Shown: one piece after another, positions 7,747-44,762 of the stretch
How the letters are laid out: the number at the start of each line of letters is the position of its first letter
How positions within the stretch are numbered: the stretch's first letter is position 1
NCBI GenBank assembly: GCA_905235155.1
Contig: CAJOKJ010000017.1
Coordinates: forward strand, 1-64,000
Source: Candidatus Gastranaerophilales bacterium
Lineage (GTDB): Bacteria; Cyanobacteriota; Vampirovibrionia; Gastranaerophilales; Gastranaerophilaceae
DNA length: 64,000 nucleotides
Direction: 5' to 3'
Translations under genes and position numbers: made by a program
The notes under the pieces: model-generated
Seen by the model: the letters and a program-made list of their open reading frames with translations, nothing else
Database searches by the model: none
Told to the model about the DNA's origin: nothing

Positions 7747-8727
7747 AAATATAAATAATAATGACGCACAACACAATGCAGGTCCAAAAGGAAGGTGGAA
7801 TAATTCGTTTTGTTCCAAGTCTTGTTCTTCTGCTTCACCATTTAATAATGCAGCATTAAGTTCAACAAGATTTTCCGGTAAGGTGTCAATAATTCTTTTG
7901 CAAAGCAATAATCCGCTTACTGTTAGTGCTAATATTAATGGAATATTGTGTATAAAATAATTTATAATTGCAAATATTGTAAAAATAATAAATTCTATAA
8001 TGGTTATAAAATCTTTTTTCTTAATTAATTTACGGAAAAAGATTGGTAAAAAAGCCAAAACTTGTATAGTAACTGCTCCTGCTAAAATAAATAAAATATA
8101 CTTCCACCCAAAACAAGCACCCAATGCACCTGCGATAAATATATCACCCGGACCTATAATCATTGTCTTTAATAATAAATATCCTATTCCCATATAAATT
8201 CCGATTAAGCCTGCACCAATGATTAAACCCAATATAGATGCAATGAAAGAAGTGCTGAATATCCAAGTTTGTCCTTGATATAAAGAGCCAAAATTGAAGA
8301 AATTATAAACTATTCCAAGTATTGCCAAAATATAACTGTGTATATTAAAAGCAACATGTTCTTTTAAGTCTGTTGTAGATATAACAATAAATAATGATAA
8401 AAACGCAACTGTAAACAGAGTATTGAATGTGTATCCGAATTTTAAAAATGCAATTAAATATAAATATCCCGTCAAAAGTTCTACAATCGGGTATTGTATG
8501 GAAATTTTTTCGTTACAAAAGGCACATTTACCTTTCAAAAAAATAAACGATAATATCGGTATATTATGCCACCATTTTAAAGGAGTTTGGCATTTTGGAC
8601 ATTTTGAAGGCGGAAATATAATAGATTCATCGTTTAAAGCTCTTAAAATAACTACATTTAAAAAGCTGCCAATACAAACACCTGTTACAAAAATAAATAT
8701 ACCGACAACAATATCCAAAATCGTCAT
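7738..8727 (-). CDS. pilD: Prepilin peptidase / N-methyltransferase (PilD/GspO family)
   Basis: Polytopic inner-membrane aspartyl protease (family A24A) that cleaves prepilin leaders and methylates the new N-terminus. The 329 residues show the N-terminal zinc-type domain with Cys43, Cys46, Cys68 and Cys71 (CPKC...CAFC) and the two catalytic aspartates, Asp120 in TTDLKEH and Asp195 in the GPGD motif. About eight hydrophobic segments follow. The C-terminal 60 residues extend beyond the usual end. It starts 2 nt after the stop of the sigma-factor gene, so the two form an operon. Its substrates include the FTLAE pilins at 5.3 and 53.2 kb. Confidence 0.93.
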   Translation of the reverse strand: MTILDIVVGIFIFVTGVCIGSFLNVVILRALNDESIIFPPSKCPKCQTPLKWWHNIPILSFIFLKGKCAFCNEKISIQYPIVELLTGYLYLIAFLKFGYTFNTLFTVAFLSLFIVISTTDLKEHVAFNIHSYILAILGIVYNFFNFGSLYQGQTWIFSTSFIASILGLIIGAGLIGIYMGIGYLLLKTMIIGPGDIFIAGALGACFGWKYILFILAGAVTIQVLAFLPIFFRKLIKKKDFITIIEFIIFTIFAIINYFIHNIPLILALTVSGLLLCKRIIDTLPENLVELNAALLNGEAEEQDLEQNELFHLPFGPALCCASLLFIFLH

Positions 8728-31930: not shown

Positions 31931-32037
31931 TCATGTATTTAATCGGAAAATTCAAGTCAAAATAGAGTAAATCGTAAAAATCTCATCTGAATAGTGGACT
32001 TTTGTCATGTATTTAATGATGAAAAATAAAAAGTCAA
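31931..32037 (-). promoter_or_regulatory. Duplicated promoter-like box upstream of the flagellar rod operon
   Basis: On the minus strand TTGACTT is followed after a short gap by TAAATACATGA twice: plus-strand positions 31931-31960 and 32005-32037. The gaps are 12 and 15 nt. The repeat suggests tandem promoters or a twin binding site for a flagellar regulator. Confidence 0.5.
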
Positions 32038-32046
32038 AATTTTTGC

Positions 32047-32075
32047 TTGACATATTTTTATTTCCTTATTAGAAT
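32047..32075 (+). promoter_or_regulatory. Promoter of the tRNA cluster
   Basis: TTGACA at 32047-32052, 17-nt spacer, TAGAAT at 32070-32075, 20 nt before the first tRNA. Confidence 0.8.
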
Positions 32076-32094
32076 AGATATTGTCAACTGACTT

Positions 32095-32166
32095 GCCGGC
32101 ATAGCTCAACGGTAGAGCAACGGTTTTGTAAACCGTAGGTTGTAGGTTCGATTCCTATTGCCGGCT
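32095..32166 (+). tRNA. tRNA-Thr (TGT)
   Basis: Acceptor GCCGGCA/TGCCGGC, D-stem GCTC/GAGC, anticodon loop TTTTGTAA with anticodon TGT, T-arm GTAGGTTCGATTCCTAT. No encoded CCA. Confidence 0.96.
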
Positions 32167-32213
32167 TGTTTGTTGAATAAGCCTTTAAGGTTGGAACAAA
32201 ACTCTGTAAACAA

Positions 32214-32285
32214 GCCTTTGTGGCGCAGGGGTAGCGCACTCCCTTGGTAAGGGAGAGGCCACGAGTTCAAATCTCGTCAAAGGCA
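32214..32285 (+). tRNA. tRNA-Thr (GGT)
   Basis: Acceptor GCCTTTG/CAAAGGC, D-stem GCGC/GCGC, anticodon stem CTCCC/GGGAG with loop TTGGTAA (anticodon GGT), T-arm ACGAGTTCAAATCTCGT. No encoded CCA. Confidence 0.96.
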
Positions 32286-32304
32286 ATTTTAACGGCAAAG
32301 ACAT

Positions 32305-32387
32305 GGGTCGGTGGCCGAGTGGCTAAAGGCAACAGACTGTAAATCTGTCGACGCGAGTCTACGGTGGTTCGAATCCACCCCTGCCCA
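32305..32387 (+). tRNA. tRNA-Tyr (GTA)
   Basis: Class II tRNA with a long variable arm. Acceptor GGGTCGG/CCTGCCC (one mismatch), anticodon stem ACAGA/TCTGT with loop CTGTAAA (anticodon GTA), variable arm CGACGCGAGTCTACG, T-arm GTGGTTCGAATCCAC. Confidence 0.95.
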
Positions 32388-32392
32388 TTTTT

Positions 32393-32426
32393 AAAAAAGG
32401 TAGTTACATTTGTAATTACCTTTTTT
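32393..32426 (+). terminator. Terminator of the tRNA cluster
   Basis: AAAAAAGGTAGTTAC / GTAATTACCTTTTTT hairpin directly after tRNA-Tyr. Confidence 0.9.
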
Positions 32427-32452
32427 GTGTTATACAGAATGATTTGTATAGG

Positions 32453-32465
32453 TTTTCAGGACAGT
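32453..32465. repeat. 13-bp direct repeat, left edge of the accessory island
   Basis: TTTTCAGGACAGT, about 65 bp after tRNA-Tyr. The identical 13-mer is at 43092-43104. The segment between is rich in orphan, broken and defence genes, so the pair may be attachment-site remnants. Confidence 0.4.
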
Positions 32466-32593
32466 TGTGATGGGAGTTTTTAGGCGAAGTTGCCTAAATT
32501 TAGGGCGAATGAGGCAGATTTGTAGTGTAGAGATTTGCCGGACTATTCTTGCACTTTTGTCCCAAATTTTGCACTATTTTGCACTAATAACTT

Positions 32594-32619
32594 GTCACCC
32601 TGAACTTGTTTCAGGGTCT
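32594..32619. repeat. Dispersed palindrome (CACCCTGAAC...TTTCAGGGT)
   Basis: ACCCTGAAA-type hairpin CACCCTGAAC-TTG-TTTCAGGGT, a short extragenic palindrome in the otherwise empty 32427-32697 gap. Confidence 0.5.
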
Positions 32620-32697
32620 ATTAAGCATGGAATTTGAACATTTACCTCGTGCAATTTTGTGCATTAAAGTGCAAAAATAATTTATCTTCCATTCTGA

Positions 32698-33273
32698 TAT
32701 AGCGGTATTAGAAGATTAGTAAATAAATTTGATAATCGCAATTTATATGAAACTTATTATGATGATTATATAAAAGATAATAAAAAACAGAAATTAAAGT
32801 TATACATAGATGATGACTATGGTTATGTGGAAGAAATACCAAAAAATCTTGCTTGTGAGGTTAGGAATAGTGCTGTTTATTTCTTAAATAAACCTCAAAA
32901 TTCACAAATCGAATTTTTTGAATTTGTAAGGGGCGGTTATTCTTATCCTACACAGATTTATAAATATAATCATTATAAAGCTAAGTACCAGCTTTATTAT
33001 TCAGAACTTGAAGCATATGGGTTTCCTGAAGTATTACCGAGTAATAAAAAATTATTAGATGATTATAAATCTTTTGAAACAAGAATACTATCAATAATTA
33101 AAAATTGGAGGTATGTAGATTACAGGGTAAATATGAATGTAATGGATGGTGAATGGTGGAAATTTAAAATAAAATTTACAACAGGGAAAATATATACAAT
33201 GAGGGGGTATAACAATTTCCCTGAAAATTATCAAAAATTAATAAAGTATTTAGATAAAAAAATAAAAAGTTAA
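32698..33273 (+). pseudogene. 5'-truncated gene of unknown function
   Basis: The frame is open from a TGA at 32695 to 33273 but has no usable start codon near its upstream end (SGIRRLVNKFDNRNLYETYY ...); an internal GTG at 32827 gives 148 residues and has no SD. The protein is Tyr/Lys/Asn-rich and soluble. It ends with GEWWKFKIKFTTGKIYTMRG then YNNFPENYQKLIKYL, a pattern seen in small immunity-type proteins, but I do not assign a family. It probably lost its 5' end during island rearrangement. Confidence 0.5.
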
Positions 33274-33300
33274 TATTACAAATTATATGTATCAAATAAA

Positions 33301-33525
33301 ATGGAGCAAATGGTTTTGCTAAGTGATTTTTATAAGAAGAATAAAGATGATGTTATTTGGTGGACTGATAATTTAGATTCGGTCGGTGAGTTTTTATTTA
33401 GTTTTGAAAAGAAAAAAATATTTAATTTATTTAGAGATTATCCTAACAATTTAACAAAAGAACAGATCAAAATTTTTGAAAAAGAAAATCCCTATTGGAA
33501 AGATTTTTTTGCATACAGAAAATAA
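33301..33525 (+). CDS. Small soluble protein, possible immunity-type orphan
   Basis: The 74 residues are acidic/aromatic: DFYKKNKDDVIWWTDNLDSV, FSFEKKKIFNLFRDYPNNLT, FEKENPYWKDFFAYRK. This compact Trp-rich pattern recurs in small proteins found beside polymorphic-toxin immunity genes; that is a weak family impression, not a match. No SD is visible. It follows the truncated gene by 28 nt, and no toxin gene is nearby. Confidence 0.5.
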   Translation: MEQMVLLSDFYKKNKDDVIWWTDNLDSVGEFLFSFEKKKIFNLFRDYPNNLTKEQIKIFEKENPYWKDFFAYRK

Positions 33526-33556
33526 TCTTATAATAGTACAGTTACAAAATTATGGA

Positions 33557-33658
33557 GGCAAGGTTAGTTAATGGATTGTCGCCATTCAATCATTGAGGGA
33601 TTCTTAAGAATTGCCCACCGCCCAGCTAGCATTTCTAGGCTACATTAATTAACCTGCC
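33557..33658. other. Compact 102-bp structured element bounded by complementary ends
   Basis: GGCAAGGTTAGTTAATG at the left pairs with CATTAATTAACCTGCC at the right (one mismatch and one bulge). The interior adds GATTG/CAATC, ATTCTTAAGAAT and CTAG...CTAG foldbacks and is more GC-rich than its flanks. There is no ORF. It could be a small structured RNA or the end of a lost element. Confidence 0.5.
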
Positions 33659-33666
33659 ATTTTAGA

Positions 33667-34224
33667 CTATTTTTCGAAATACTTAAGTTCCTGTTTGATT
33701 TTAACTTTTTTATCCGTTGTTTGTCCTTTGTTACCTTGCCAATGACCTATAAGTTTACCGTCGTTGTCATATATAAAGCTTTCATATCCGGTGTTAAACT
33801 CTACGCTCATTAAATGACCGTAATTATCGTATTTTATAAATCTTTGAGGATATGGTTTGTTTCGTTCGCTTAAATCTATTATAGCAAACAGCTTGTATTT
33901 CCCATTTCTCTTTTCATATAAGTATTCGATATCGGGTTCATCTTCATAACATACGTGATATGCACTATAAGGAATTAAACCAAATATCAGGGCATTACTT
34001 TTCCCTGCAAATTTAACATTATTAGTAACACCTAAATTAAACCAATAACGGTTATCTCTTGGCAAGTATATAAAATTTGGATTTATTTTTTTAACACCTT
34101 CAAACGATTCAACCCTTGCAGTTTCTTCCGTATATGTTATACCGCATTCAAGGGTTGTACCAAAGGCTGTTATTTGTATAAAACAAATAAATAAAAAAAC
34201 AAAAAAAGTTTTTACAATATTCAT
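33667..34224 (-). CDS. Secreted protein of unknown function with YD-repeat-like tail
   Basis: The start at 34224 gives an N-terminal signal peptide (NIVKTFFVFLFICFIQITAF, then G-TTLECG); an upstream ATG at 34272 would bury it. The 185 residues have two cysteines in the mature part and a C-terminal run KYDNYGHLMSVEF ... FIYDNDGKLIGHWQG, which looks like degenerate YD/RHS-type beta repeats. It is probably periplasmic or lipoprotein-like (no clear lipobox). The gene stands alone on the minus strand at the left part of the island. Confidence 0.6.
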   Translation of the reverse strand: MNIVKTFFVFLFICFIQITAFGTTLECGITYTEETARVESFEGVKKINPNFIYLPRDNRYWFNLGVTNNVKFAGKSNALIFGLIPYSAYHVCYEDEPDIEYLYEKRNGKYKLFAIIDLSERNKPYPQRFIKYDNYGHLMSVEFNTGYESFIYDNDGKLIGHWQGNKGQTTDKKVKIKQELKYFEK

Positions 34225-34458
34225 TTTCTTTATAAGTACAATATAAAACATTGATGCGTCAGAAAAGGACATAATCTTAAAATATATTTAGAACACTTTA
34301 AACAAACTTCCGAAATCAAAATCCCGATAAAGATTTTAAACCTGTTTTATACTCGTTCAAATGCTGTTAAAGATAATTTTTATTATGTCCATTTTTGACG
34401 CATATTCAATTTAAACTACTAGTATGAATAATATAATCTTAAAAGTCTTAATTGTCGT

Positions 34459-35355
34459 ATGCGTTATGTTTATAGCATAACAGAGGAATTAAAACAAGCA
34501 AAATTATTTTTAACAAGTATCAGCCAGATTGATAACGTTGCGAATCTAAAAAATGCAGTAGAAAACGTAATTTCAATAAATTCACAAAGTAAAAATATTT
34601 TAAATAATATAAAAACAGAAGTATTAAATTCTGCTAAATTGTTGCAGAAAACATTAAATGAAGTTTTAACAGAAGAAGATTCTGATACATTGAGTATTAA
34701 ATTACCGCCAAACTATTCTTCGATAAAAGATTTCAAAAATTTCTTTGACGAATTGGAAATTATTTGTATGCCTTTTAAGTATATAAATGAGGAAGTACAA
34801 ATAACTTGTTTTGATGTCGGTTCGGAATGGATTGGTTTGAAATTAATTAGCAATAGTATAGGATTATTTCTTTCTCTTGCTGATAAGTCTGCAAACCTAT
34901 TTAATCATGTTTTAGAATGCCAAAAAACAATAGAAGAATTAGAAAAAGTAAAACTTGATAAATCCGAATCAAAAATAAAGATAATAAATCAAACAATAGA
35001 TCTTTTAAAAAAAGATAAAGAAAAAGAAAGAGAAGAATACATAGACAAATTAATAGAAGAGGCTATTGCTGAAAGTAAAATAGTATTGAAAAAAGATATT
35101 AATAATAATGAGTTCAAAAATCACTTAAGAAAATCTATGGAAAAGCTTGGAAGTTTGATAATAAGAGGCTTGGATATAGTTCCAGCACTTAAAGCAAAAC
35201 CAGAAATTAAACAATTATCATTGAAAGCAACTGCAAATATTGAAGAAAAACGAAAGTTAATTATAGGCATAGATAATTTAAAATATTTAACAATTTTAGA
35301 TACAGACGTAAAAAGTAAAGATATTCCTGCTGATACAGTAGAATTACCTGAATGA
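34459..35355 (+). CDS. Hypothetical soluble helical protein
   Basis: The 298 residues are Lys/Glu/Ile-rich with no signal peptide. A coiled-coil stretch runs at about 150-205 (QKTIEELEKVKLDKSESKIK then IDLLKKDKEKEREEYIDKLI). An N-terminal segment (about 95-130) contains CFDVGSEWIGLKLISNSIG. I recognise no domain. There is no SD at the ATG. Coiled-coil proteins of this kind occur in phage and mobile islands, but no function is claimed. Confidence 0.55.
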   Translation: MRYVYSITEELKQAKLFLTSISQIDNVANLKNAVENVISINSQSKNILNNIKTEVLNSAKLLQKTLNEVLTEEDSDTLSIKLPPNYSSIKDFKNFFDELEIICMPFKYINEEVQITCFDVGSEWIGLKLISNSIGLFLSLADKSANLFNHVLECQKTIEELEKVKLDKSESKIKIINQTIDLLKKDKEKEREEYIDKLIEEAIAESKIVLKKDINNNEFKNHLRKSMEKLGSLIIRGLDIVPALKAKPEIKQLSLKATANIEEKRKLIIGIDNLKYLTILDTDVKSKDIPADTVELPE

Positions 35356-35358
35356 TAA

Positions 35359-35586
35359 TCATATTGTATCAATATACCAGTTACTATTTCCAAAATGGTT
35401 AAAGTTCCATTGTAAGTCAAAGTAAAAATCTGATTCTGAAATTTTGTTGGCTTTAAAATATGGCTTTGCGCTTTCAGTTTTAATATAACTTTCAAGAGCT
35501 GTTTGGATATCTTGTGCAAATCTTGTTTTAAATTCAGTATACGATATGTTTATGCGTTCTCGGGTTCTTTTATTTTTCAAAATCAT
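35359..35586 (-). CDS. Small hypothetical protein, coupled to upstream gene
   Basis: The ATG at 35586 lies within the last codons of the upstream gene (17-nt overlap), giving 75 residues: ILKNKRTRERINISYTEFKT then RFAQDIQTALESYIK. Basic N-terminus, Trp/Asn-rich C-terminus. An earlier in-frame start would overlap the neighbour much further. Looks like a small plasmid or phage accessory protein. Confidence 0.5.
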   Translation of the reverse strand: MILKNKRTRERINISYTEFKTRFAQDIQTALESYIKTESAKPYFKANKISESDFYFDLQWNFNHFGNSNWYIDTI

Positions 35587-35770
35587 CTTCAAAACCTCTG
35601 ATGTTGTCAAGTTCAATATTGTATCGTTTGCCGGCTTTATCAACGCATGTTGCAAAATCGACGGTTTTATCAGCATACTTGTTTTCCCATAGACAAATTA
35701 GCAAGCCGATTTCTTGTGTTTTTAAATTTAAAATCTTTGTCCCATAAAGCTTATAATCTTTATTAACCAT
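35570..35770 (-). CDS. Small hypothetical protein
   Basis: 66 residues from the ATG at 35770, which has AAGGAG 7 nt upstream; an earlier in-frame start lacks one. Sequence begins VNKDYKLYGTKILNLKTQEI and ends IRGFEDDFEK. No recognised domain. It forms a two-gene unit with the next gene. Confidence 0.55.
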   Translation of the reverse strand: MVNKDYKLYGTKILNLKTQEIGLLICLWENKYADKTVDFATCVDKAGKRYNIELDNIRGFEDDFEK

Positions 35771-35910
35771 ATTATGCTCCTTTTGGTTACACACATTAAT
35801 CGATTACATTTTGGAAAAATTCAAGTGTAATACCTGTTTTTTGTATCATTTAGACATATTTATGTTGTAAATACCGATTTAACAGCTCTTAAACGACACT
35901 TAAACGCACC

Positions 35911-36131
35911 TTAAAAATCAACATCTTTTTCGTGGTCGATAAAAAATGCATTTAAGACATCCGCATCGTTGCGTAGGTGCTTTAAACCGGCGAAAGATTA
36001 TAGCACTCTTCAATCTCCGACTGATTTGCAACAAAATAATCAATAACAACAGCGGTGTTATAAATATTCTCCGACCACTTGCTCAATTGCTTAAACTCTT
36101 TTGGTGTGATGTTAAATCCAAATTTTTCCAT
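35911..36131 (-). pseudogene. Frameshifted small accessory gene
   Basis: From the ATG at 36131, with the strong SD AGGAGG, the frame gives EKFGFNITPKEFKQLSKWSE ... CYNLSPV and stops at 35982 (49 residues). The next frame continues LKHLRNDADVLNAFFIDHEK-DVDF to a stop at 35911. Joined, they make a plausible protein of about 72 residues, so one small indel near 35985 has broken it. Confidence 0.6.
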
Positions 36132-36208
36132 ACTTTATACCTCCTCTGACATACAACATTAGCGTGAAAGAAAAATAAAAGCAGGAAAACTTTACAAAAC
36201 AACAAAAA

Positions 36209-37486
36209 TTATTTTAAATTATTCATATATCCATATAGTTTATTATTTAACGTTGCTAAAAAACTACAAAAATCATCTGATGTTAAATTTCTATTTGTAT
36301 AATACAATTCGTTATAAAAAATTTTTTCGGAATATGCTTCTATAGCATCACTAAAAGCATATTTTAATTCGTTATCAATATTTTTTATAAAATTAAAAAG
36401 ACCTATCTTTCTAAATAATAGATACTCGGGCTTTAATTCACAAAGGTCTTCGTTATTAGATAGCTTTTCAAGCTCCATTTCATTGTATTTTGATATTGCA
36501 GCTATAGTTTGTTTAATAGCACTACTCTCGTCAGCTTCATCAAATATGTGAACAGCATGCTTTATAAATTCAAAATAAAAACATAGTTCACTATAAGAAC
36601 CATTTACTGTTGCTTCTAGTTCTTCATTAGATAAATTTTCTATTGATAATTCATTCTTATCCCATGAATTAATGCTATCAGTCCAACCTTCAAGCGTATT
36701 TCGCCATTCAGTCCAATGCTTTGCTTCTTTGGCTAGAGGTATTACTTCTTTTTCTAAATCTTCCAATATTTTATCCTCTGACCAACCGTAATCCGTAAGG
36801 GCTTTTACATAGTTGTTCAAAATTATAGAACCCTTAGCGTTATCCCAATATCCAAATCTATTTCTGCAAATTCCTTTTATATATGCCAGTTTTTGCTTTA
36901 TAGGCGGTAAATTTTTATTTACTAAAACTCCACCAATTTTACTTAGGAACTCTTCTACACTATCTTGTTCTAATTTATCTTCATAATCATATTTTAAATA
37001 TTTTTCTGCCGCTATATTGATTGCATCTAATATTTCATCTTGCTTATATTTTTCAAAAAGCTTTAATATCTCTGTTTTAAAATGTTTTTTTAGCGTGTAT
37101 GGTTGAATTTTATCCTCAATATATTGTATAAATAAGTCGGATTCGTACTCATCAAGTTCATCTAAAGATTTTTTCCACTCAAACAACATTTCAAGTTGTT
37201 CTCTTTTTTCTTGTAAAAGTTCTAATTGCATGCGTTGTTTTTCAAGAGTTTCATTTACTGATAGCGGTATATCTCTTTTCCCCCTATTACAATCAATACA
37301 GCTTGTAACCAGATTTGTAATACTATTATCCCCACCTTTAGCAACAGGTTCAATATGGTCGACCTCTAATATTACATCTGGAGCTTTACGACCACAATAT
37401 ACACAAGTAAATTTATCCCTTTTAAAAACTTCAAACCGGACTTTTTTACTTAGAGATTCTCTTTTAGTTTTTTTAGTCTTAACCAT
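36209..37486 (-). CDS. HNH endonuclease-domain protein linked to the R-M operon
   Basis: The N-terminal 70 residues are a classic HNH nuclease: RFEVFKRDKFTCVYCGRKAP, then LEVDHIEPVAKGGDNSITNL, then CIDCNRGK, with paired CxxC zinc ligands and the DH catalytic core. The remaining 350 residues are helical and unrecognised (425 in total). It lies 43 nt downstream of the DpnII-type endonuclease on the same strand. It could be a second nuclease of the restriction locus or an independent defence nuclease. Confidence 0.8.
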   Translation of the reverse strand: MVKTKKTKRESLSKKVRFEVFKRDKFTCVYCGRKAPDVILEVDHIEPVAKGGDNSITNLVTSCIDCNRGKRDIPLSVNETLEKQRMQLELLQEKREQLEMLFEWKKSLDELDEYESDLFIQYIEDKIQPYTLKKHFKTEILKLFEKYKQDEILDAINIAAEKYLKYDYEDKLEQDSVEEFLSKIGGVLVNKNLPPIKQKLAYIKGICRNRFGYWDNAKGSIILNNYVKALTDYGWSEDKILEDLEKEVIPLAKEAKHWTEWRNTLEGWTDSINSWDKNELSIENLSNEELEATVNGSYSELCFYFEFIKHAVHIFDEADESSAIKQTIAAISKYNEMELEKLSNNEDLCELKPEYLLFRKIGLFNFIKNIDNELKYAFSDAIEAYSEKIFYNELYYTNRNLTSDDFCSFLATLNNKLYGYMNNLK

Positions 37487-37529
37487 AGGTAAATATTAGC
37501 ATAAAAAGTTATAGTAGACTATTTTGATA

Positions 37530-38387
37530 TTATTTTAGCTTTTTAAGAACATCATCTTCCAAGTCTTGAATATTATAAACAGTATCTAATACATCAAATG
37601 TTTCTTCAAGATTATGTCTTGCACTATTCCAACCACAACCGTCTGTAAACCAAATAAATGTTACACCATCTATTGTTGCTATTTCCTGTGCAAGAGTTTT
37701 ATAACTTCTTGCGGTTTCATTGAGTTTAGATCCGCCACTTGAATAAAAATTAGTTTCAATTACATAAATTTGCTTATCCGTTTTAATTACAAAATCAAAG
37801 CGTTTCTCCATTTTGCCTTGATTAGAAATTGCCGAAAGGTTTACACCCCATTTTTGTCCAATTTCATGGATATACATTTCTTTGAAATAGTTTTTATTCT
37901 TGATAAATCCTGCTTTTTGAATATAACTTTCGACGAGATTCTCCATTAAATGTCCGCCACGATTCTTTCTGCCATTAGAATCAAGACCGGTTTCAACACC
38001 AGTTGCATAATCAACCAAGTTGCTGACAATATGATTTTTTAGAAGGTCAAATAGCTTTGTTTTACGCATAAACATCTTATATTCTTCAATGCTATAATTG
38101 CATTTCTTGAAAGAAAAATTATACTCACCTTCCGCATCTGTAACAGAGATTTCTTTTGCTCTTACCGCCAATAATAAAGGAATGCATTTTAATGTTTCAG
38201 GATATTTTGTAATAACATTTTCAAAATCTTTTTCAATATTTTTAGAGCCAACTAAGGTGTTCAAAATATTTAACTCCACCTTAATACTATCAACATTACT
38301 GTTTACTTTATCAAAATCAACGTAGTAGCAGTAGTCAGAAATGCAAGGTCTAAATGTTGATAGCCATTCTTTAAAATTCCTTTTCAT
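37530..38387 (-). CDS. DpnII/MboI-type type II restriction endonuclease (GATC)
   Basis: The 285 residues match the DpnII endonuclease family: FKEWLSTFRPCISDYCYYVD, LLLAVRAKEI, DYATGVETGLDSNGRKNRGG with HLMENLVE, and the catalytic region KRFDFVIKTDKQIYVIETNF (D-x-ExN, PD-(D/E)xK-like). The family cuts GATC when unmethylated. The adjacent Dam-type methylase supports GATC specificity. It starts 8 nt after the 185-aa gene, and all genes of the locus are on the minus strand. Confidence 0.9.
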   Translation of the reverse strand: MKRNFKEWLSTFRPCISDYCYYVDFDKVNSNVDSIKVELNILNTLVGSKNIEKDFENVITKYPETLKCIPLLLAVRAKEISVTDAEGEYNFSFKKCNYSIEEYKMFMRKTKLFDLLKNHIVSNLVDYATGVETGLDSNGRKNRGGHLMENLVESYIQKAGFIKNKNYFKEMYIHEIGQKWGVNLSAISNQGKMEKRFDFVIKTDKQIYVIETNFYSSGGSKLNETARSYKTLAQEIATIDGVTFIWFTDGCGWNSARHNLEETFDVLDTVYNIQDLEDDVLKKLK

Positions 38388-38395
38388 AAATTATC

Positions 38396-38953
38396 CTATC
38401 TGCCACGAAAAGTAGCTGTTGAAACCATTTTCCATATGCTGCCATCACAACTTTTTAATGTTTCCAAAAGACGCTTGAACATATAGGCATCCTCTCTATT
38501 TGTTTTTTCTTGTAGCATTAACAATTTTGCGAGAATAATTAAAAACTTTATACTGTATTCACCATCATTATTAAGTGTTAAATATTCAGCACAATTTTCT
38601 TCAAAATCTTTTAGTAAAAAATCAATATTTAACTTTTGGTTTCTGTCACCAATAGATTTAATGGGTTTGGTGTTATCCCACATATCTATTAGCATATTAA
38701 GAAATGATTGCGTTTTTTCTTTATCTTGGTACATTTTTATCAGTATATCTACAGCCCAATGAATATGCTTAGGCGTCCGTATTGATGACCATTTATCGTC
38801 TTCCAATTGACGATATTTTATTAAAATATCATATGGACTTAAACTTCCTTGATAAACAGCTACAATATATTTTCCATTTATCCTTTCTGCCCACAATGGT
38901 ACAAGAGTACCTCTTGTCATAGTTTTAATTAAATCATTTAAATCGATAGTCAT
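38396..38953 (-). CDS. Unknown protein within the DpnII-type R-M operon
   Basis: The 185-residue soluble protein (IDLNDLIKTMTRGTLVPLWA ... GSLSPYDILIKYRQLEDDKW ... AVDILIKMYQDKEKT) lies between methylase and endonuclease with gaps of 5 and 8 nt, so it is a built-in part of the operon. No HTH of a C-protein is evident, and it is too long for a typical controller. It may be an accessory or specificity-modulating subunit. The function is unknown. Confidence 0.65.
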   Translation of the reverse strand: MTIDLNDLIKTMTRGTLVPLWAERINGKYIVAVYQGSLSPYDILIKYRQLEDDKWSSIRTPKHIHWAVDILIKMYQDKEKTQSFLNMLIDMWDNTKPIKSIGDRNQKLNIDFLLKDFEENCAEYLTLNNDGEYSIKFLIILAKLLMLQEKTNREDAYMFKRLLETLKSCDGSIWKMVSTATFRGR

Positions 38954-38958
38954 ATTAT

Positions 38959-40584
<1,626 letters not shown>

Positions 40585-40590
40585 GAGTTG

Positions 40591-40596
40591 ATTATA
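40591..40596 (-). promoter_or_regulatory. -10 box of the R-M operon (leaderless)
   Basis: TATAAT on the minus strand ends 6 nt before the ATG at 40584. No SD. Confidence 0.5.
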
Positions 40597-40735
40597 ATAT
40601 AAAAAAGCAAACAAATCTTTGAATGTGAAGGTTTGTGTTTTAGAAAAGTAAATCTTAATTTTTTATTAAAATTTTAATAATTTTAAAAATTTAATGATAG
40701 CATAAGAATTATTTATAATCAGAGTAGGTGGGGAT

Positions 40736-42658
40736 ATGTTATTAAGAAATGTCAAAATTCAAAATTACAAATCAATAGAGGAAATAGAATTTCCCATAGA
40801 AAAACGTAATAAAAGTTACACAACTATTTTATTAGGGAAAAATGAATCTGGTAAAAGTAACATTTTAGAAGCTCTCTCCGCACTTGAAAAATATAATGAA
40901 GAAGAAAAAACAAATTTTTTAAGTGTACGCAATCAACAAAACGAACCAGAAATAGTGTCCATTTTTTATTCTATGGAAGAAGAAAATCCTGAAGAATACA
41001 GAAAAGCAATAGCAAAGGAAGTAAAGATTGATGAAGAAATTTTATCTAAAATAACTGTCGATAAAGCAGTGAAAGAAATTTATATACAAGATGGCGAAAA
41101 TATCTTTGGTTATGAATGGCAAATTACATATAAAAGTTTTCCAACAAATAATAAATTCTACTTAGAAACAAAAAAAGATATACCTGGTAAAGTAGTAAAT
41201 GGGGTTCAACAACCATCTACACAAAAAGTGCAATACGAGATAGTTTATTGGAATAGTATAAAGGAACTTGATGAAGAAAATAGAGCTACATACTTACCAT
41301 TAACCAAAGAAAAAATGGAAGAAATAATTACACCAATTATAGAAAGATATTTTAATTTAAATGAAATTCCTGTATCTGTTTGGAAGTCAGATCCAAATTA
41401 TCTTATTCAGGATAGCATATCATTAAAAGATTTTGCAGAACACACATACAAATATCCACCTTTAAGAAACATTTTTTCACTAGCTGGTTTAGAATCAAAT
41501 GATGCTATAAATAAGAAAATTACTGAAATTGCACAGAGTTCAAACTATCGCAAAAAATTACAAAAACAGTTATCTGATAAAACAACAGAATACATGAACA
41601 AGAAATGGCCAGAACATAAAATTTCTATTGATGTAGAAATATCTGATGAATTAAATATACACGTCAAAGTTCAGGATAAAGATAATACGGATGCTTATCA
41701 TAATATGGAGGAACGTAGCCAAGGTTTTAAGCAGTTCGTTTCTTTATTATTAAGCCTTTCTGTTGATAATAATACTGGAGATTTAAAAAATAATTTAATA
41801 TTAATTGACGAGCCAGAAGTCCATATGCATCCATCAGGAATCCGTTATATGATGCAAGAACTGTTAGAAATTGGTAAAAATAATTATGTTTTTATAGCAA
41901 CGCATTCTAATTTTATGCTTGATCGTAATACGCAGGAACGTCATTTTTTAACAACAAAAAAGAATGGAAAAACAAAAATCAAGCAAATCTTATCAACGGA
42001 AGACTTAAATGATGATGAAGTTTTACAAAGTGCGTTTGGTATGAATGTCGTAAGAGACTTCGTTTCAAATGATAAACTATTAGTAGAAGGTGCTTCAGAT
42101 AAAATATTATTACAAAAAGCTTTAAATAAAATTAAACCAAATAACTGTATAAAAATTACAAATGGCAAAGGTGATAACCTTTGTGCAGTAGCATCATTAT
42201 CAGGTTATTATGAAATATATCCAATTGTAGTAGTAGATGATGATGAACAAGGAAAAAAGATAAAGAAAGAAATAGTAAAAATTGGCTCAAATTACTCGAA
42301 TGACACAGTTTTTACATTGCGCGAACTTTGTGGAGAACTGAAAGATTGTGGAACAATAGAGGATGCCCTACCACTAGAATATGTGCAAAACAAAGTTAAC
42401 GAAGCTTTATCTAAAAATGGCATTACAGCTTTAGAAATAAAAAATGAAGAGCCTTTTTGCAATCAGATAAAATTACATTTACAAAAAAATATATCTGACG
42501 AAAGCTTGTCAAAAAAAGATAAAAAAGATAGAGTAGAAAACTTAATTTTAGAAATAAAAACAAGAATTTCAGATGATTTTGATGCTAAAAAGTTAGATGA
42601 TAAAGCACCTATACTGCATAAAATTGCTACAAAAATTATAGAAAAGTTTAGTATATGA
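40736..42658 (+). CDS. OLD-family ATP-dependent nuclease (ABC-type ATPase plus TOPRIM)
   Basis: The 640 residues begin with an SMC/ABC-like ATPase head: LRNVKIQNYKSIEEIEFP, Walker A GKNESGKSN (34-42), signature-like NMEERSQGFKQFVSLLLSLS, Walker B LILIDEPEVHMHP (about 357-369) and H-loop FIATHSNFM. A C-terminal TOPRIM domain follows, with LLVEGASDKILL (Glu near 449) and VVVDDDEQGK (near 500). OLD proteins include GajA of Gabija and P2 Old, which abort phage infection. No UvrD-type GajB is adjacent; an unknown 128-aa gene is coupled instead. SD GTAGGTGGGG is present. Confidence 0.88.
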   Translation: MLLRNVKIQNYKSIEEIEFPIEKRNKSYTTILLGKNESGKSNILEALSALEKYNEEEKTNFLSVRNQQNEPEIVSIFYSMEEENPEEYRKAIAKEVKIDEEILSKITVDKAVKEIYIQDGENIFGYEWQITYKSFPTNNKFYLETKKDIPGKVVNGVQQPSTQKVQYEIVYWNSIKELDEENRATYLPLTKEKMEEIITPIIERYFNLNEIPVSVWKSDPNYLIQDSISLKDFAEHTYKYPPLRNIFSLAGLESNDAINKKITEIAQSSNYRKKLQKQLSDKTTEYMNKKWPEHKISIDVEISDELNIHVKVQDKDNTDAYHNMEERSQGFKQFVSLLLSLSVDNNTGDLKNNLILIDEPEVHMHPSGIRYMMQELLEIGKNNYVFIATHSNFMLDRNTQERHFLTTKKNGKTKIKQILSTEDLNDDEVLQSAFGMNVVRDFVSNDKLLVEGASDKILLQKALNKIKPNNCIKITNGKGDNLCAVASLSGYYEIYPIVVVDDDEQGKKIKKEIVKIGSNYSNDTVFTLRELCGELKDCGTIEDALPLEYVQNKVNEALSKNGITALEIKNEEPFCNQIKLHLQKNISDESLSKKDKKDRVENLILEIKTRISDDFDAKKLDDKAPILHKIATKIIEKFSI

Positions 42659-43041
42659 ATAAGAAAAAACACATAAAATTATGGGTTATTGAAAAATATA
42701 ATCAATATTCAAAAGAAAGAAAATTGTTGGCAATATTAAATTCTCGTCTAAATTATGATAAAGTAATATTTGCTATGAAAATATTAATGATGGGTGATAG
42801 CACTAGTTATAGTGAGATTTTAAATGTACATTTATACAAGAAAAATGAACTTGAGTATCCTCACCAATATTTAAAGTATCCTATAATTATAGCAGGAAAT
42901 AGTCAATATTATAAAGCTCCTTATAGAGCTTGGATTGCTGACTTTAATAGAGAATCAGGTAAATATACGGATATCGAAATATCTTTAAAAAAATACCAAG
43001 AGCAACATATTTCAATAAATCAATCTCCATCTCATAGTTAA
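42655..43041 (+). CDS. Unknown 128-aa protein translationally coupled to the OLD nuclease
   Basis: The ATG overlaps the OLD stop (ATGA), so the two are coupled. The protein is basic and soluble: NKKKHIKLWVIEKYNQYSKE ... MKILMMGDSTSYSEILNVHL ... YYKAPYRAWIADFNRESGKY. I recognise no domain, helicase motif or reverse transcriptase. Its strict coupling suggests a partner or regulator of the nuclease. It is the last gene of the accessory island. Confidence 0.65.
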   Translation: MNKKKHIKLWVIEKYNQYSKERKLLAILNSRLNYDKVIFAMKILMMGDSTSYSEILNVHLYKKNELEYPHQYLKYPIIIAGNSQYYKAPYRAWIADFNRESGKYTDIEISLKKYQEQHISINQSPSHS

Positions 43042-43091
43042 TTTAATCTTGTTCTATGTGTTAAATTACAATTTGATTAGTACTCTGTATT

Positions 43092-43104
43092 TTTTCAGGA
43101 CAGT
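43092..43104. repeat. 13-bp direct repeat, right edge of the accessory island
   Basis: TTTTCAGGACAGT, identical to 32453-32465. Confidence 0.4.
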
Positions 43105-43111
43105 GTATTTT

Positions 43112-43198
43112 TCACTTGAAATGATTTTTTTGTATCTTTCCCTTGTGTGTCGGGGTTTTCGGAGTTGGAAGTTTCATACAAATAATCATCTCAAGTGA
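43112..43198. repeat. Imperfect 23-bp inverted repeat
   Basis: TCACTTGAAATGATTTTTTT (43112 onward, ending GTAT) pairs with ATACAAATAATCATCTCAAG (43176 onward, ending TGA), with about 40 nt between. It abuts the island's right direct repeat and may be an element end or a hairpin at the mRNA 3' end. Confidence 0.5.
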
Positions 43199-43238
43199 CA
43201 GTTTACATACTCATTAAAACATTCAAAATAAAATTAAA

Positions 43239-43679
43239 CTACCAATTTTTATTGGATTTCTTTTTCGCCCATGCATCATTTTGAGGGTTTACTAATTTTT
43301 TACCCGCAAAATAAAAATTAGGACAAGCATTGCCCTTCCACTGACCATTTATAACAATATCATTTTCATCTACTTCAATTATTTTTTTACAATATTCAAC
43401 TTGAATTTCTCCACCTGTCGAAAATACAGTTTCGTTACCTTTTTTATCAGTTGAAATAATGGAAAATCCTGCATCACGATTTATGGAAGTTTCAGAAGAT
43501 TCCCAGATATATAACTTTTTTCCTGCTATATTTTTTTCATCATCCGGATAACCCCAACTTTTCATCAAGGAGTCCAAAGGATAACCAATCCAAGATGCGA
43601 TGCATTTATCCATAAAAAATTCCCAGCCATAAGCACTGACCGGAATTAACAACATAAAAATTAATATATATTTTTTCAC
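43239..43679 (-). CDS. Small secreted protein of unknown function
   Basis: The 146 residues start with a signal peptide (KKYILIFMLLIPVSAYG). The mature part holds IASWIGYPLDSLMKSWGYPD and KLYIWESSETS, the W-x-G...WG-x-P plus aromatic-strand pattern of small periplasmic/lipoprotein domains common in Gram-negative bacteria. Three to four cysteines are present. It lies 15 nt after the acyltransferase gene and is probably cotranscribed with it. Confidence 0.7.
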   Translation of the reverse strand: MKKYILIFMLLIPVSAYGWEFFMDKCIASWIGYPLDSLMKSWGYPDDEKNIAGKKLYIWESSETSINRDAGFSIISTDKKGNETVFSTGGEIQVEYCKKIIEVDENDIVINGQWKGNACPNFYFAGKKLVNPQNDAWAKKKSNKNW

Positions 43680-43694
43680 TATAAACTTCCTTTT

Positions 43695-44762
43695 TTAACA
43701 GCTTTTAATTTTAAACCAATTTTTCTTGACATATTTTGCAACGGGTCTTTCAAAAATATAATACATGATAACCCCAAAAATTAATGCAATTGCAACTTCC
43801 GACATAAAAAATCTAAATGGATGTAATAGAATAATTTGGTAATAATTTACATAAACGTAACGAATAAATACCGCTAAAACAGCAATATGAAAACAATACA
43901 TTGAATATACATATTGCCCTAAAATATTTGAAATATTATTTTCTAAAAATTTTGATACTATCCCCTTTTTAATTAAAAATAGATAAAATAATATTGAAAA
44001 CAAAACAATAAATATCATAGCAGATTTACCCGCAATTTTATCGGCAAAAATCAAATAATAGGTTAAAAAAGATAGTATATAAATTTCAGCAACGGATATA
44101 ACAACTTTTCCTGCTATACCAACGTTTTGCAAAAATCCATATTTATAAGCCATACATATAAAATATCCTAAACCCATTGATGCTAGAGCTTTGCATATAC
44201 CGCCATTAAATATTAAATAATAATTTTCTATATGACCACCGGCTAAAAACGACGTATGCTGCATATATAACGCATAACACAGCATTACAATAATGCCTAT
44301 AATTATATTTAAAAATTTTTTATCAAAAATTTTTGAAATATAAAAATAAAACAATGAAACCCAAAATAACGCTGAAATATACCAAGTAATATTCATATAA
44401 GTTCCACCAGATATTGGTTCAAATCCAACACAATGCAGCAAAAATATTCTGAGAAGATTATCGTTAAAATGACTGTTAATAGCAGGAATAAAGAATGTTA
44501 AAACAATCATTATAAGCACCAAAAGCCATAAATTTGGTGCAAGCCTTAAAAATCTCTTTTTTGCATAATCAAAGGTACTAAGCTCGTTATTAAAAGTATA
44601 AAAAAGCAAAAAACCTGATATTACAAAAAATAAATCAGGGCAGACCTTACAATTTTCAAAGTTTCCTAACCAACCAGGTAAAAGATAAATATCACGTGAA
44701 TGATGCATTATGATACTTAACATTATAGTAAATTTTAAAAATCCAATATTTTTAAATACCAT
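43695..44762 (-). CDS. Acyltransferase family 3 membrane protein
   Basis: Integral membrane O-acyltransferase, 355 residues and about ten helices. The conserved N-terminus is present: FTIMLSIIMHHSRDI (catalytic His-His region), then PDLFFVISGFLLFYTF, then KKRFLRLAPNLWLLVL (Arg motif). The family transfers acetyl or similar groups onto cell-surface polysaccharide or lipid. The acceptor is unknown. The gene is divergent from the PAP2 gene, and neighbouring genes also act on the envelope. Confidence 0.88.
   Translation of the reverse strand: MVFKNIGFLKFTIMLSIIMHHSRDIYLLPGWLGNFENCKVCPDLFFVISGFLLFYTFNNELSTFDYAKKRFLRLAPNLWLLVLIMIVLTFFIPAINSHFNDNLLRIFLLHCVGFEPISGGTYMNITWYISALFWVSLFYFYISKIFDKKFLNIIIGIIVMLCYALYMQHTSFLAGGHIENYYLIFNGGICKALASMGLGYFICMAYKYGFLQNVGIAGKVVISVAEIYILSFLTYYLIFADKIAGKSAMIFIVLFSILFYLFLIKKGIVSKFLENNISNILGQYVYSMYCFHIAVLAVFIRYVYVNYYQIILLHPFRFFMSEVAIALIFGVIMYYIFERPVAKYVKKNWFKIKSC

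Follow-up and report, generated by a model that had tools for sequence, protein, structure and literature searches.

The window, a stretch of 64,000 nucleotides from Candidatus Gastranaerophilales bacterium (contig CAJOKJ010000017.1), encodes an OLD-family protein that is directly followed by a gene for a protein of 128 residues. Both open reading frames named in the original prediction are present, and the stop codon of OLD and the start codon of the small gene share the sequence ATGA. This arrangement raises the question whether OLD and the small protein form a defence pair of a new class, as had been proposed, or whether the small gene is one that an OLD locus can have or lack. The answer depends on what kind of OLD protein is encoded, whether the small gene is real, and how often the two genes are found together.

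The island and its restriction-modification genes

The pair lies at the edge of an island of about 11 kb (Table 1). The island is absent from G402, which belongs to the same genus and is closely related (92–97% DNA identity on both island sides), and it begins just after a group of tRNA genes. A 13-bp direct repeat, with no further copy in the genome, is present near both ends. The island proteins that were scanned include no recognisable integrase (positions 32827–33273, 35359–35676 and 35570–35794 lay outside the scan), and Rfam matched only tRNAs at 32000–44000.

The original prediction placed OLD next to a restriction-modification (R-M) operon. A DpnII-type R-M cassette is indeed located divergently upstream of OLD, but its first methyltransferase reading frame is broken by a frameshift near the end of the gene (39792–40614). 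The gene may be a genuine pseudogene, or the break may stem from the assembly; the copy in G016, a genome with a very similar OLD locus, is intact. The corresponding G016 cassette does not have the 185-residue ORF. The HNH protein of the island shows weak similarity to PtuB-like HNH domains.

Table 1. Features of the island and its flank in the window.
Feature	Position	Strand	Remarks
tRNA-Thr, tRNA-Thr, tRNA-Tyr	32095-32388	+	Flank the island
Island with R-M cassette and OLD-small gene pair	32446-43714	.	Absent from G402
13-bp direct repeat, left copy	32453-32465	+	Near tRNA-proximal island end
HNH endonuclease, 425 aa	36209-37486	-	N-terminal HNH domain; long tail matching phrog_16986
DpnII-type restriction endonuclease	37530-38387	-	Family match
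185-aa ORF	38396-38953	-	No family match; in the R-M cassette, flanked by methyltransferase and endonuclease genes
Dam-like (MethyltransfD12) methyltransferase	38959-39798	-	Family match
N6_N4-type DNA methyltransferase of R-M cassette	39955-40614	-	Frameshifted; remainder in other frame, 39792-39977
OLD-family protein, 640 aa	40736-42658	+	N-terminal ABC/SMC-like ATPase, Toprim, predicted C-terminal helical region
Small gene, 128 aa	42655-43041	+	ATGA overlap with OLD; basic (pI 9.5) and rich in tyrosine; single known homologue
13-bp direct repeat, right copy	43092-43104	+	About 50 bp past the small-gene stop

The OLD protein

Judged from its sequence, the protein is an OLD protein by each feature tested. 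It matches Pfam AAA_15 (E 5e-21) and, slightly under the cut-off, OLD-like_TOPRIM (E 3e-4). Its top PADLOC model is Old (E 9e-31), and the AriA profile of PADLOC matches as well (E 9e-25). The top NCBIfam family is the Eco8 effector, with a score of 53.8 that is far under the cut-off of 250 bits.

The residues of P2 Old that are important by mutation, and the OLD residue set as a whole, were taken from a published account (PMC7049728). In an alignment of the window OLD with P2 Old and nine relatives, the P-loop K40, the Walker B D358, the D-loop H365 and the H-loop H390 align with K37, D299, H306 and H332 of P2 Old. The residues of the Toprim metal A and metal B sites (E451, D455, D501, and D503) are likewise aligned with those of P2 Old. 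The third acidic Toprim motif is T540-x-E542, which is invariant in 10 of the 10 OLD sequences aligned. Its published counterparts are T506/E508 in Bp OLD and S478/E480 in Ts OLD (PMC7049728). The equivalence with this T/S-x-E motif is one of type and was assigned by pattern, without residue-level alignment to a solved structure, because the P2 Old profile alignment stops at residue 479–480. The claim that the ATPase and TOPRIM residues are intact therefore stands, the last motif by pattern.

The AlphaFold model of OLD (10 sequences) has a mean pLDDT of 84.7. Its best Foldseek matches are the Thermus scotoductus OLD (E 3e-14) and the Gabija protein GajA (8sm3, E 2e-13), with low whole-chain TM-scores of about 0.3. 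VIA-align covers mainly the ATPase, for which the best matches are SMC-like heads (Z 18.9, rmsd 4.0, 291 residues). C-terminal to the Toprim domain, the model predicts helices at residues 547–637.

The small gene and its homologue

Profile and structure searches, which had been proposed for the 128-residue protein, gave no family match and no confident fold match. In the window the protein matches nothing in Pfam, PADLOC or PHROGs, and the same holds for its homologue in Pfam and PADLOC. Matches in NCBIfam (E 0.021) and the PDB (E 0.42) are noise. The predicted model is weak (mean pLDDT 64) and has no Foldseek match in the PDB or BFVD at E 0.001; the best VIA match has Z 4.2 and rmsd 4.6 over 86 residues. 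Neither a fold nor the absence of one is claimed on the basis of this model.

The homologue was found by whole-genome searches. A search across the class (382 genomes) recovered no copy besides that of the window. Among 383 genomes of the family, there is one further homologue at E < 0.001, in G384, which belongs to a different genus. The G384 protein is 69% identical over residues 1–119 and its gene has no internal stops. It is encoded directly downstream of an OLD that is 92% identical to the window OLD, with the overlap TGATG. The same coupled arrangement is hence present in a second genome; the refuting outcome named in the original prediction, that the small protein never accompanies OLD elsewhere, did not occur. 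Other candidates were discarded as chance matches: rows of the family search at E up to 0.1, many of which carry internal stops; a hit at L021, where the ORF resembles a periplasmic adaptor by eye; and two rows of the phylum search (E 6e-4 and 9e-4), which contain internal stops. With tblastn at E 0.1, phage and plasmid sequences yielded no homologue. Scans of the viral and species-genome collections with short exact peptide patterns, which are blind to distant relatives, did not retrieve the small protein either.

On their own, codon statistics are a weak argument for the small gene, as its modest codon score of 0.065 per codon is reached by 3 of 36 shadow ORFs. Comparison of the two copies is more informative. 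Between window and G384, dN/dS is about 0.16 for the small gene (codons 1–112) and 0.06 for OLD. Because purifying selection, as measured by these ratios, acts on both copies, the small gene is taken to be real and the pair to be conserved. The C-terminal 10–15 residues are not conserved between the two small proteins, and the DNA alignment contains a 4-base length difference. Synonymous divergence is 0.56 for the small gene (60 sites) and 0.45 for OLD (305 sites), values that are by our own estimate within error of each other. OLD and the small gene have therefore plausibly travelled together, and joint descent in window and G384 is plausible.

Distribution of OLD with and without the small gene

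On the assumption that the two 383-genome family samples are identical, 11 genomes encode OLD (E up to 1e-20), and only 2 of these 11 have the small gene (E < 0.001), both times beside OLD. The small gene was not found without OLD in this sample, nor in any of the collections scanned. One OLD without it is that of G016, which is 91% identical to the window OLD, has an intact active site and is preceded by the same DpnII-type R-M genes. In this genome, which lacks the small gene altogether, DNA similarity to the window stops at the OLD stop codon, beyond which a WYL-type regulator is encoded on the opposite strand. What might be a remnant of the small gene 3′ of the G016 OLD is unconvincing, as the score of the window copy was reached by 80 of 2000 shuffles and that of the G384 copy by 377 of 2000.

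The wider neighbourhood was counted in the GTDB collection, where 146 stretches encode OLD relatives and 80 loci were retained. Neighbour tables were based on 30 and 28 of these 80 loci; the partial matches L061–L109 were omitted, as were L038, L058 and L059, in which OLD is truncated or broken. Of the 28 loci at which the 3′ end of OLD is usable, one has the small gene, and this is the G384 record itself (L031). One locus is uninformative, as L032 stops about 30 nt past OLD, and a sensitive two-sequence HMM search of 109 loci, those omitted from the tables included, detected no small gene at the other 26. The neighbourhood counts envisaged in the original prediction consequently confirm the pair in G384 but not as a general arrangement.

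Relatives without the small gene retain an intact OLD, and what follows it varies. A same-strand ORF of at least 60 residues within 150 nt downstream is found at 13 of the 28 loci, and these ORFs are of differing kinds. Ten downstream proteins were scanned, including HsdS, a cytosine methyltransferase, an ABC transporter, a ParE toxin and a serine recombinase; none of the ten, which are not always the nearest gene, is a UvrD-like helicase or a reverse transcriptase. Since downstream genes are varied or missing, the OLD proteins concerned form a clade without a fixed partner. In turn, because the other relatives of OLD lack it, the small gene looks like a rare and optional add-on and not like a widespread new defence system.

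Several loci of the relatives' group have features of their own. R-M genes are located near OLD at L012, L017/L049, L037 and L040. At L017 (2067–11875), a 38%-identical OLD lies amid genes that resemble type I R-M genes by eye, with an hsdM-like gene upstream and a 150-residue ORF, an hsdS-like and an hsdR-like gene downstream. In Maribacter arenosus (L045), a 132-residue ORF (7920–8318) begins 8 nt past an OLD of 35% identity; this ORF has no Pfam match and no similarity to the small protein of the window. Mu-transposase-like genes occur near OLD at L012 (1580–3534), L013 (10352–12968) and L016 (830–3601), with TniB-like ATPases in two cases, which suggests that Mu/Tn7-like elements carry OLD in this group.

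The tree built on the shared part of OLD has window and G384 as sisters and G016 outside (UFBoot 98 for DNA, 94 for protein). When OLD is split in halves, the best tree is the same for each half; recombination between the halves is accordingly unsupported. The alternatives were not rejected (AU p 0.05–0.16), and as the grouping of window with G016 has AU p 0.13–0.16, the sister relation is not firm. The pattern of the small gene would be accounted for by one gain, or by one loss in G016.

Comparison with known OLD systems

Like Class 1 OLD proteins such as P2 Old and that of Thermus scotoductus, the window OLD combines an ABC ATPase and a Toprim domain in one chain, with the same metal-binding residues, and its relatives mostly lack a fixed partner. 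Class 1 OLD is however a single gene, whereas the OLD genes of window and G384 have a coupled small gene. The window OLD additionally differs in its 640 residues and in its location on an island with R-M genes, and may differ in the predicted helices after Toprim. The published account attributes C-terminal helices after Toprim to Class 2 and not to Ts OLD (PMC7049728).

With Class 2, i.e., Gabija GajA-GajB, the window OLD shares the fold match to GajA and perhaps, as far as the model indicates, the helical C-terminal region. In Class 2 a UvrD/PcrA/Rep-like helicase is encoded directly downstream, in contrast to the 128-residue ORF of the window. The likeness to Class 3, represented by the effector of retron Eco8, consists of the sub-cut-off NCBIfam match and a fold match to 9p4j. 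Class 3 has an adjacent reverse transcriptase and ncRNA, which have no counterpart among the ten window proteins scanned or the Rfam matches. The AriA-type ATPase profile that matches the window OLD belongs to PARIS (AriA/AriB, proposed Class 4), where ATPase and Toprim are on separate genes; here a single chain has both, and no Toprim match was obtained for the small protein. Septu pairs the ATPase PtuA with an adjacent HNH protein, PtuB, whereas the 128-residue protein has no HNH match and the HNH gene of the island lies on the opposite strand at a distance of 3 kb. The statement that the partner is not of the GajB, reverse transcriptase or PARIS type is borne out by the lack of a PADLOC match and by the absence of a UvrD-like or reverse transcriptase gene seen beside OLD. 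By its context, the window OLD fits no published class cleanly; to place it in Class 1, the additional gene would have to be disregarded. No description of an OLD with this small gene was found in the open-access literature, subscription papers and preprints being mostly outside the scope of that search.

Possible roles of the small protein

The preferred explanation, held tentatively at close to an even chance, is that the small protein is an optional, co-translated regulator or adaptor that was added in one lineage to an otherwise stand-alone OLD nuclease. The core would be an OLD-family ATPase-Toprim nuclease from a clade in which OLD ordinarily functions with no fixed partner. As in the OLD proteins characterised so far (PMC10568477; PMC13261556), it probably senses a phage-caused state via its ATPase and cuts nucleic acid via its Toprim domain. 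Caution comes from E. coli YbjD, whose Toprim domain is described as dispensable for the phenotype (PMC13261556). In the lineage of window and G384, the small basic protein would be translationally coupled to OLD and produced in step with it, which suits a subunit or regulator. It may bind OLD or the DNA or RNA substrate and so tune OLD, its likeliest role being a restraint or a trigger or specificity adaptor. A basic protein (pI 9.5 in the window, 9.1 in G384) would fit contact with the acidic OLD (pI 5.5) or with nucleic acid. The small protein would be an accessory and not a defining component. This reading is supported by the same coupled position in a second genus, purifying selection, the sister relation of the carrier OLDs, the intact OLD of relatives without the gene, the conserved active site and the R-M island. 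Counted against it are the weak model of the small protein, the modest codon score, the unconserved C-terminus and the unfirm sister relation; moreover, since only two copies are known, co-inheritance is documented in a single lineage.

The next candidate, unlikely but the most serious of the alternatives, is that the small gene is independent cargo of the mobile island, with a role of its own, read by termination-reinitiation in the OLD transcript and not acting on OLD. The varied downstream genes of OLD relatives, the G016 OLD without an adjoining small gene and the position at the extreme edge of the island all agree with it. It does not readily explain why the same partner, coupling type and similar synonymous divergence recur across two genera, or why the small gene always accompanies OLD in the family sample and the scanned collections.

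The reading closest to the original prediction, in which an OLD sub-clade depends on the small protein for defence and forms a new two-gene OLD class, is improbable. In its favour, the coupled overlap is kept in both genomes, the small gene is under purifying selection, the carrier OLDs cluster in the tree and none of the known OLD partner families matches the small protein. Against this stands G016, where an OLD with an intact active site occurs without the small gene. Nor is there a clear partner-contact signature in OLD, as the differences from G016 that the carriers share are not significantly clustered at the C-terminus (Fisher p 0.077). A more specific version, in which the small protein is a required subunit without a recognised fold that switches or targets OLD, the first of a new two-gene class so far limited to gut Gastranaerophilales, is likewise rather doubtful. 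Because the gene is rare and missing beside a close OLD and other readable relatives, an optional, lineage-specific accessory fits better than a defining partner.

In general, antidote genes precede toxin genes and an antidote cannot be lost while the toxin remains. A toxin-antitoxin-like pair, with a toxic OLD, the small protein as antidote and the island stabilised as a result, is very unlikely, since the small gene follows OLD and close relatives retain OLD without it, although cells that are recBC-negative are killed by P2 Old according to a review (PMC10568477), and the gene is co-translated on an island missing from G402. The explanations consequently rank as regulator or adaptor, unrelated cargo, obligate new OLD class, and antidote.

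Implications for OLD nucleases

The kind of OLD nuclease encoded in the window is known, and the coupled small gene is new as a variant of it. The finding carries modest weight, since the known copies of the small gene number only two. Among the questions posed in a review are whether isolated OLD proteins defend alone and how many OLD classes exist (PMC10568477). Here, nature provides near-identical OLD proteins (91–92%), some with a coupled small gene and some without. This natural comparison bears on whether an OLD nuclease can recruit a dispensable regulator.
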